64,000 nucleotides of DNA from Tribonema minus (Eukaryota > Sar > Xanthophyceae > Tribonematales > Tribonemataceae), in assembly GCA_017506865.1 (NCBI GenBank), contig JAFCMP010000047.1:343302-407301 (forward strand), given 5' to 3'. A model generated the notes under the pieces. That model saw nothing but the letters and a program-made list of their open reading frames with translations. It did no database searches and had not been told where the DNA came from. Position 1 is the stretch's first letter, and each line of letters opens with the position of its first letter. Made by a program: the position numbers and the translations under genes. Positions 216 through 42,741 of the stretch are shown piece after piece.

Positions 216-2435
216 CTGCGTGATGACGACCGTGCGCGCGCGCGTCCCCGAGGCCTTGGGCCCCGCCGCGATCGCCAGCGCGATCGTCGCGACGTCGCTC
301 CCCAGCCCGTGCTTGGCCCCGTACGCCGCCGCCTCGCTCTCATTTCCAAAGAGGTAGTCGGCGTACGGCAGCGCGGCGGCGAGCGCGTCGCCGAAAAAGT
401 CCACCAGGAATGGCGCCGAGAGGTTCAGCGCGAAGACCTTGCCGCGCGCCGCCGCGTGCGTGGCAACGCTCAGCAGCGCGTCCACGCTCACCGTCAGGAA
501 GAACCCCGCGACGTAGTAGAACTGCGCGGACTCTATCATGGCCTTGGCGGCGGGCGTCTCGAGGTGGTCCGGCTTGAAGTTGTTGGCGGCGGCGAGGTTC
601 GCCACGAGGGAGCGCTCGCCGCCGTGCACGAGGACTGCGCAGGTGCCCGTGGGGGTGGCGTCGTCGTGCATGTAGTTGACCTGCACGCCGTCCGCCGCCG
701 CGCACTCCTCCAGCTGCCGCCCAAAGTCGTCCTTGCCGACGGCGCCCAGGTAGCCTGCGCAGCGCGGCGCAGCGGTCGTGGAGGTTAGCTGGAGTTGAGG
801 TTGGAACTATGGTTAGGGTTAGGTTTAAGGCCAGGGTTAGGACGTCCTTGCCGACGGCGCCCAGGTAGCCTGCGCGACCGTCGTTAGGGGGTAACAGCTA
901 GAGTTGAGGGTGGTTAGGGTCGCCGGCGCCGAGGCAGCCTGGGCAGCGCAGCGCGGCCGTCGTTGAAGTGAGAGTTAGGATTTGATTTAGGTTGAGGTTT
1001 GGGTTTGATCGTCCTTGCCAACGGCGCCGAGATCGCCTGCGCAGCGCCGCGCGGACTGCGTTAGGGTTAGAGCTAGGGTTAGAGTTAGGGTTGGAGTTTA
1101 AGTCGTCCTTGCCGACGGCGCTGAGGTAGCCTGCGCAGCGCGGCGCGGCCGTTGTTGGGGTAAGAGTTCGTGACACGTTTTGAAGTTGAAATTATGATTA
1201 GGGTTAAATCCTTGCCAAAGGTGCCAAGGCGCGCGCAGAAGGTTTTTTATGGTTTCTTATTGCTTTCTAAAGAACTTTGGAGCATGTGAGAGTGCACTAC
1301 TAGCATTGTGTTTTCTGGACTTGCGTCAGCGAGGAGTTGTTTGTTGTTCGTCTGGTTCGAGGGCAAGCGCACCGTCTGCACTGCTGCCTGCCACCACATG
1401 AGGTGCTGAGTTCGGTACGCCTGCAATGCGCACACGAGTTGCACCCCTACGTTGGACATGGCCACAAGTGACCGTTGCAGGCGGTGTGAGTGCAGTGTCA
1501 CGTGAAGGGCCATTGAAAGGTTGAAATTGACACAGTCATCACAGCCTGCTGCATGCTTCGCGCGTGCGCTTGCAGTGACTGAAGGGACGCATGATTGGCA
1601 GACAGGAGTCCACGTGCTCCAAAGGAATCATCGCTGCTTGCAGGTGCGTTATGTTAGAGTCCAGTGTGTATGCGCAGCAACTGCCAATGTGTACACTTTA
1701 CATTACATGCAGTATGACATATTCACTGCCTTGGCAAAAGTCTACCTCATTGGATGGAAACCAATGATGCACATGTGTCAAGCTAAAATGTTGTACCATC
1801 AATATCAGAACTAGAGCACATGGCAACTGCGAACCTGCTCACTTGCAATGAGGCAGAGTGGTGTGACTGGCCACGGCACCCACTGAATTGTGCACCGAAT
1901 GAGCGCCACCTCACGTCGACGAGTCATCCTGTGATGATGTGTGCATTACCACTCAAACATGACACGAAGCTGATGACGCTCAGCAGTGGAACCATTGCCT
2001 TGTGCAAAGAATGTACTTCGTGGCGTGGCAACTAATTGCGTATCCTAGAGCGCTGTATACGGATATACGGGTGCGCTGCAAATTGGGCATTGCAGTGCAA
2101 TTCGCAAGCCGAGTCCTGCTTGTCTGCTCTGAAGGTGGAATCCGTGAGCAAACCCAGACACCGAGTAATGCGGATGTCCTACCTGTGGATCCCGCTGGAG
2201 ACATCCACTGGGCAACGCGGATGCTGTTCTGCGTTGCGCCTCCTGCGATGTACTCCACCTTATACTCCTCGACAAGCTTGCGATACAAGGGAAGGTGCTT
2301 CTCCTCCGCAAGGATGGCGTTGTTCAGAGACACGCCATACTCCTCCAGCAGCGCCTCCGGCACCTCCGCGCTGATGTCCAGCAGGGGGTTGCCCATGCCC
2401 AGGAGCGTGATGCCATCCTTGCTGAATCCCGCCAT
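216..2435 (-). CDS. ADK: Adenosine kinase (pfkB family), 5' exons only
   Basis: Adenosine kinase phosphorylates adenosine to AMP in purine salvage. Two exons are visible: 2435-2183, starting MAGFSKDG, and 754-216, joined in phase 1 (G|GC). Exon 1 carries [16 protein letters not shown] and [17 protein letters not shown], the substrate-binding N-terminal signature of eukaryotic adenosine kinases. Exon 2 carries [36 protein letters not shown] and [12 protein letters not shown], all in family order. Exon 2 ends at ITQ|gtgcga, so the catalytic DTNGAGDAF region must lie beyond the left edge of the window. The frame is open upstream of M2435 as far as 2531, but family alignment favours M2435. The 1.4-kb intron holds an array of exon-edge copies. 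The start lies 198 bp from a divergent PPR gene. Confidence in the family is very high. Confidence 0.95.
841..1245 (-). repeat. Array of five adenosine kinase exon 2 acceptor-edge copies with TTAGGG tracts
   Basis: The real acceptor is at 754/755. The exon start there encodes [10 protein letters not shown] (plus strand GTCCTTGCCGACGGCGCC). The same block recurs at about 841, 925, 1012, 1107 and, worn, at 1209, a spacing near 85-100 bp. Each copy keeps part of the exon, the AG and the GC-rich intron end. The gaps are filled with degenerate TTAGGG and GTTAGGGTT tracts. On the minus strand the copies lie upstream of the used acceptor. Confidence 0.85.

Positions 2436-42741: not shown

Follow-up and report, generated by a model that had tools for sequence, protein, structure and literature searches.

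Why do the introns of three neighbouring, unrelated genes contain repeated copies of the exon edges that adjoin them? The question is raised by a 64,000-nucleotide stretch of the Tribonema minus genome (hereafter the window), located at positions 343302-407301 of contig C47 in the 158.2-Mb, 554-contig assembly of this xanthophyte stramenopile. A first-pass annotation, made from the sequence alone, had noticed about fifty such copies in most introns of an adenosine kinase (ADK) gene, a LARP4-like gene and an EGY-like gene, and had proposed that tandem duplications spanning one exon-intron junction were absorbed by splicing at the outermost site. We analysed a sample of 334 kb, made up of 84 kb of C47, 100 kb of C1, 100 kb of C10 and 50 kb of C100, in which a home-made, self-trained ab initio gene finder called 37 genes and 250 exons. 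Thirteen of the 37 were dropped before the table of copies was made (mobile-element-like, single-exon or low-complexity genes, and genes replaced by curated ADK and EGY models), and 16 were dropped in the per-intron tallies, namely introns with a copy, intron length and TTAGGG per intron. Exon edges of 60 nt, passed through a low-complexity filter, gave 274 edges for a strict test, while six protein-kinase junctions, picked solely by the positions of Pfam matches, formed a second sample.

The sampled DNA also holds features of other kinds. Three long intronless ORFs in the window (2633-4759, 8958-11063 and 50157-52115) look like one family, PPR-like by eye, and two of them sit in a 6.3-kb segmental duplication. 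An alanine-rich ORF region (6305-8112), probably a mobile element, has a downstream part that turns up again among the proteins predicted on C1 and C100, and a multi-exon gene, transposase-like by eye, extends from 55600 to the contig end at 64000. On C100, the stretch at 63-86.5 kb is repeat-rich, with few genes called and with missed coding pieces, one of them peroxiredoxin-like by eye.

Gene models and copies of exon edges

The ADK model has three exons and a PfkB match at 5.7e-70. Spliced without the copies, it aligns with solved adenosine kinases and shows no insertion at its junctions, the sole gap near them being a single residue, some seven residues before the first junction. The EGY-like model has 13 exons, 12 of which are present in the public T. 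minus protein JKP88DRAFT_353011 (exon 2 in part, the protein beginning inside it), which was the one protein found in a protein search with the model. It has no Pfam match at 1e-3, and its label is that of the first-pass annotation together with an HExxH motif noticed on reading its translation. The putative LARP4-like gene, an ab initio model only, inherits its label from the same source. The LARP4-like, UvrD and HisRS models are partial, and in a protein search with the spliced UvrD model no Tribonema entry was present among the best 120 of 7830 matches.

Exon 2 of ADK (216-754, minus strand), identified as real by homology to solved ADKs, has copies at both edges: an acceptor-edge array lies upstream of it at 755-1166 and a donor-edge copy downstream at 16-133, both on the minus strand. 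In the LARP4-like gene, also on the minus strand, donor-edge copies (13493-14183) lie below the exon at 14429-14575, copies flank the exon at 16310-16481 on both sides (16145-16903), a donor-edge array with a unit of about 185 lies below the exon at 20698-20895 with an acceptor-edge copy above it (20327-21086), and further copies surround the exon at 22863-23078 (22717-23558). On the plus strand, the donor edge of EGY exon 3 (real end 26958) and its downstream copies occupy 26917-27435. Acceptor-edge copies lie upstream of exon 4 (28795-28953; together with the copies, 28498-28953), exon 6 (31482-31728; 31116-31728), exon 8 (35361-35453; 34637-35453) and exon 9 (36956-37300; 36360-37300), as do an array upstream of exon 5 (29859-30164; 29463-30164) and one copy upstream of exon 7 (33494-33585; 33366-33585). 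Upstream of exon 10 (38818-39036, encoding IVHEAGHA; 38452-39036) two acceptor-edge copies were seen by eye and one was tabulated. On the donor side, exon 4 has one copy (29046-29093), exons 5, 6 and 8 have copies at 30230-30627, 31768-32206 and 35528-36110, exon 9 has an array of 2.4 units of 168 (37254-37678), and the donor edge of exon 10 is followed by copies, four by eye and three tabulated (39004-39626), all again on the plus strand. A cathepsin-like gene adjoining EGY (44372-48633, plus strand; label and limits by reading) serves as an internal control and had no copies in the four introns tested.

By BLAST criteria we counted 45 copies in the three genes, close to the number first estimated: 28 in EGY, 3 in ADK, and 11 in the LARP4-like gene, plus 3 when its first exons were called separately. 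At least one copy was found in 10 of the 12 EGY introns, in both ADK introns and in 5 of 7 LARP4-like introns, so that the statement that most introns carry copies holds for these genes. It fails for the wider sample, where edges with a copy number 46 of 76 in copy-rich genes and 4 of 198 in the rest, a contrast that is itself overstated since the grouping into rich and poor was made after the copies had been seen. A self-comparison of the window, one of the checks originally suggested, gave 122 near direct repeat pairs versus 14 inverted ones, the latter in repetitive or low-complexity stretches. Over the 334 kb, the strict test placed 97 copies at 47 of the 274 edges on the predicted side (acceptor copies upstream, donor copies downstream, as first described) versus 8 copies at 6 edges on the opposite side; only 2 copies were inverted, random unrelated flanks used as a control yielded none, and exon interiors yielded 3 in 60 exons. 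That the copies lie on one side follows from the geometry of tandem duplication, and provides no further support of its own. An unfiltered first pass over 186 core exons gave 184 matches: 118 agreed with the prediction in both side and edge, 12 lay on the opposite side, 52 were internal and 2 covered the whole exon, with 24 inverted matches besides; where inspected, the internal and inverted matches were mostly low-complexity, mobile-element-like or from mis-called exons. We rejected inverted or dispersed copying, since 97 copies on the predicted side stand against 8 on the opposite side and 2 inverted. In the unselected kinase sample, one of the six junctions carries an array, with five donor-edge copies after deduplication, in a gene on C120 which we take to be Aurora-like; reading of the other five revealed no copies.

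The copies extend into the intron. Of the 110 in the whole sample, 94 come to within 3 nt of the junction, 90 run past it and 16 end inside the exon, and the exonic part of those crossing the junction measures 13-115 nt, with medians of 40 (acceptor) and 50 (donor). Over the 50 nt of intron adjoining the junction, 3047 of 4700 positions could be aligned in 94 copies versus 1061 for shuffled sequence. Homology thus runs through the whole unit, intronic part included, and lies in direct orientation beside its source, as in a tandem duplication. Some donor copies have an alignment that ends at the GT, which would fit copying of the exon alone; we rejected this candidate, intronic homology being present overall, and in the EGY donor copy at +407 homology picks up again, by reading, deeper in the intron. 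Splice-like motifs bounding the units on their outer side were rejected as well: inspected by eye, these ends showed no consistent AG or GT.

Decay of the copies and the site used in splicing

We compared real edges and copies by codon position. Divergence between them is 8.5, 8.6 and 19.2% at the three positions and 18.2% in the intronic part (47 copies with both parts well aligned). The first two positions show half of the intronic divergence, as expected if a single branch, that of the copy, is decaying there, while third positions and introns record two. Among 191 classed changes private to a copy (counted at sites covered by two or more copies), 120 are nonsynonymous, 69 synonymous and 2 stops, for a neutral expectation of 124, 62 and 5; by codon position they number 58, 58 and 79, a mild third-position excess. 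On the real lineage the corresponding changes are 1, 5 and 19. Frameshifting indels affect the exonic part of 27 of the 110 copies. The copies appear to be dead exon edges that decay near-neutrally beside a constrained real edge, the explanation as a whole being, in our judgement, highly probable.

Two observations pull the other way. Stops number 5 in 1619 codons of the copies versus 11.5 in simulation, a deficit with P 0.02, and between copies the exonic parts are less diverged than the intronic ones (14.3 versus 17.6%, with 2.6 versus 7.5 gaps per 100), which perhaps reflects a detection bias or gene conversion. Could the copies then be decoys kept by selection for splicing regulation? Their splice sites are mostly intact and their exonic parts are the less diverged, but GT is retained in 47 of 59 copies and AG in 30 of 35, about the neutral expectation of some 84% given by 8.6% divergence, and most edges of the sample have no copy; we regard selected decoys as very improbable. 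The decoy GT and AG appear to be neither removed nor preserved, and are kept only until mutated.

A second possibility is that the copies are real exons, the product of a mass gain of exons and introns, spliced in frame as micro-exons as in a potato gene. JKP88DRAFT_353011 includes 17 edge copies as micro-exons (window 27132-38692), with, for instance, its HEAGHA motif doubled; stops are fewer than expected; and the potato RdRp case has, in the relevant passages of PMC4974935, RNA-seq support. Against this stand the near-neutral substitution classes, which fail to show the constraint on each copy expected of alternative or mutually exclusive exons, the frameshifting indels, and the doubling of conserved motifs that it would entail, such as HEAGHA or the VMYRTN stretch of UvrD. 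In addition, our own ab initio finder, which used no RNA, took many of these copies into its gene models too, implying that prediction alone can yield such micro-exons. Conservation of the copies as coding exons is hence unsupported by the substitution classes, the stop deficit remaining, and we find this second reading unlikely. For the UvrD helicase, one copy would insert 22 amino acids that are absent from the homologue P0020; in the alignment with a second homologue, P0016, the gap at the copy is not clean. Further T. minus proteins may carry edge copies.

Evolution of the copies and homology of the spliced models thus point to use of the outermost site, that is, the first donor and the last acceptor. 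In the course of events that we envisage, 100-200 bp spanning one exon-intron junction would be tandemly duplicated, often repeatedly, in certain genes, and splicing would stay on the outermost site, most easily by exon definition; with that site still in use, the mRNA would be unchanged and the intron would grow by one unit per event. Junction-straddling tandem duplication with outermost-site splicing, as first proposed, would account for the direct orientation, the position of the copies on one side, the near-neutral copies, the constrained real edge and the two arrays found to be private to their loci, and is well supported by them. For the annotation of the T. minus genome, and perhaps of its relatives, this means that automatic procedures can put dead exon edges into proteins.

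Unit length, placement and a possible origin in DNA breaks

The duplicated units have a narrow range of lengths. The distance from the real junction to the nearest copy spans 98-267 bp, with a median of 159, at the 51 edges that have a junction-reaching copy no more than 400 bp away; this set excludes copies ending inside exons and four junction-reaching edges whose nearest copy lies at 401, 1435, 1805 and 2249 bp. None of the 51 has its nearest unit below 98 bp, although in simulation units of 55-85 bp were recovered in 17-30 of 30 trials, according to their age. Among 98 spacings between successive copies four are shorter (9, 9, 49 and 69), three of them in low-complexity or exon-internal matches and one in ADK. 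The exonic share of the unit has a median of 0.36 and a maximum of 0.68 over the 51 edges, whereas 22% of units would exceed 0.68 if they were placed uniformly. The intronic part that this implies is at least 46 bp long, and a typical unit joins some 45 nt of exon to some 90 nt of intron. The floor at 98 bp may be either a size class of the process that breaks the DNA or the result of purging of decoys too near the real site.

Introns that bear copies are longer (median 1177 for 35 introns versus 500 for 103, P 7e-6). As a contrast case, a 36-exon gene with long introns on C10 (100-200 kb) had no junction-reaching copy, and among the few genes that could be named no pattern of gene class explains which are rich and which are poor.

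We then weighed whether the duplications are directed to junctions at all. It is a serious possibility, if less than probable, that duplications of 100-200 bp fall anywhere in prone regions, that exonic ones are purged and that the survivors include the junction-straddling ones; this rival bears on how the pattern arose and leaves the reading of the copies as dead edges intact. Tandem duplications do exist away from junctions, shorter units included, and if ancestral introns were short, a unit of 150 bp could not have avoided spanning a junction. In poor genes, the density of junction-straddling units exceeds that of intron-only units just 2.8-fold (P 0.06). By contrast, the excess is 26-fold in rich genes, where junction density is also 56 times the intergenic one, both ratios being inflated by the grouping after the fact. 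When all 274 edges are pooled, junction density is about 1.2 per kb versus 0.10 for intron-only and 0.035 for intergenic units (about 12-fold and 34-fold), figures that rest on hand-taken repeat counts and an assumed target of 150 bp per edge. The intergenic value rises to 0.19 per kb, and the junction ratio falls to about 6, if one includes an unannotated part of C100, whose 27.7 kb of nominally intergenic DNA contain 28 repeats of 98-260 bp that we set aside as missed genes; the eight coding-like pieces at 13-36.5 kb within the sampled C100 block show only that missed coding pieces exist in the stretch holding these repeats. Other observations go against a lack of targeting: simulated detection is about equal for junction and non-junction duplications up to 13% divergence, the exonic share stays below the expected spread, and the nearest unit at the 51 edges is never under 98 bp, yet the duplications away from junctions include such units.

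TTAGGG is taken as the telomere repeat of this genome, as (TTAGGG)8 stands at the starts of C2 and C3 (among the places listed). Interstitial TTAGGG runs amount to 0.45-0.53 per kb in copy-rich regions versus 0.05-0.12 in others, about five times more (control hexamers, 0 to 0.33 per region on average), and to 0.49 versus 0.18 per kb in copy-bearing versus other introns (P 2e-4), a correlation between regions chosen post hoc in which a repeat inside a unit is multiplied with the unit. In two EGY introns TTAGGG and CCCTAA runs meet head to head, in intron 8 (35757-35790) and within the exon 10 donor array (39531-39560). Head-to-head telomere repeats occur at break-repair insertions in the horse, according to the passages of PMC7215372 on this point. 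In mouse and human cells, CST and Pol alpha-primase are required for small tandem duplications to form at 3' overhangs, which in the assay were 43 bp long (PMC8355091, in the relevant passages). As CST-Pol alpha-primase also fills telomere ends, its action would join the duplication and TTAGGG signatures.

We suggest, with less assurance than for the duplications themselves, that these arise at DNA breaks in break-prone genes. A staggered-end break near a junction (paired nicks), followed by fill-in and end joining, would duplicate the stretch between the nicks; break-prone genes would host such duplications, and telomerase would sometimes leave TTAGGG scars. Such repair would predict overhang-sized units with break scars nearby; a narrow size class and the TTAGGG enrichment were observed. 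That junction-directed, break-repair-linked duplication is a main builder of intron length in the hot genes, with splicing ignoring intact decoys at least about 98 nt away, is a proposal we make tentatively and hold on balance to be doubtful. Intron growth by junction-straddling duplication would in itself be a route to longer introns without transposons. The arrays would also provide dozens of natural experiments on how a spliceosome chooses between nearly identical sites, and the 98-bp floor, together with the absence of visible selection against decoy GT and AG, makes exon definition versus site competition directly testable.

Comparison with known systems

Introner insertion, or else an artefact of assembly, is an extremely improbable source of the arrays. 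Units of 100-200 bp fall in a size range of introners, but the two arrays searched are private to their loci in the 158 Mb (simple repeats and common words being skipped by the search): the EGY exon 9 donor unit has one match, itself, and the ADK array has five foreign matches of 35-50 nt, every one of them within its telomere-like portion. The copies, moreover, include the exon edge, and the divergence of their exonic parts, from 0 to nearly 30%, is unlike that of assembly duplicates. We accordingly rejected an introner family, as introns shared with other loci were not seen for these two arrays, in agreement with the distinction drawn by the first-pass annotation. Introners, as presented in the passages of PMC9860276 and, for Amoebophrya, PMC7789003, resemble the T. 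minus arrays in that the intron content of algae and protists has expanded on a large scale; they form families of similar introns across many genes, whereas each T. minus unit is tied to a single junction and includes exonic sequence.

The same annotation knew of no intron class of this architecture. We found no description of arrays of copied exon edges in the literature searched, from which subscription journals were mostly absent; a single acceptor-straddling duplication has been published in potato (PMC4974935, in the passages on it). New beyond that first account are the narrow unit length with its floor, the contrast between genes, the association with TTAGGG and the 17 micro-exons in the public protein.

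Several systems share features with the arrays. The direct repeats near splice sites described in the relevant part of PMC11782384 also lie at exon-intron borders, but measure 4-30 bp and stand between two intron ends, unlike the arrays of one edge in T. minus. The CST-Pol alpha-primase duplications (PMC8355091) and telomere inserts at breaks (PMC7215372) would yield direct duplications and TTAGGG scars, head-to-head ones included; the passages concerned deal with mouse and human cells and with horse and human genomes, and contain no link to splice junctions. Tandem genomic duplication is reviewed as a mechanism of intron gain in PMC3443670, which in its passages on the subject goes with Rogers 1989 and Hellsten 2011, and it resembles the T. 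minus arrays in that a direct tandem copy of genic DNA is absorbed by splicing. In the usual model given there, an exon segment containing AGGT is duplicated and a new intron results, whereas in T. minus the duplication extends an intron already present, without requiring a new one. The closest case is the potato RdRp gene, in which, according to the passages of PMC4974935 on it, a duplication across the boundary of intron 1 and exon 2 gave a new intron with a cryptic donor, and the duplicated exon segment is found in the mRNA by RNA-seq. The duplicated unit crosses an acceptor junction, as in T. minus. In an intron gain of this type a new spliced intron would appear, with part of a copy in the mRNA; the public T. 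minus model does contain 17 micro-exons, but the copies evolve near-neutrally. Potato thus presents one event, while T. minus presents arrays at donors and acceptors, in several genes, made of copies that are apparently dead.
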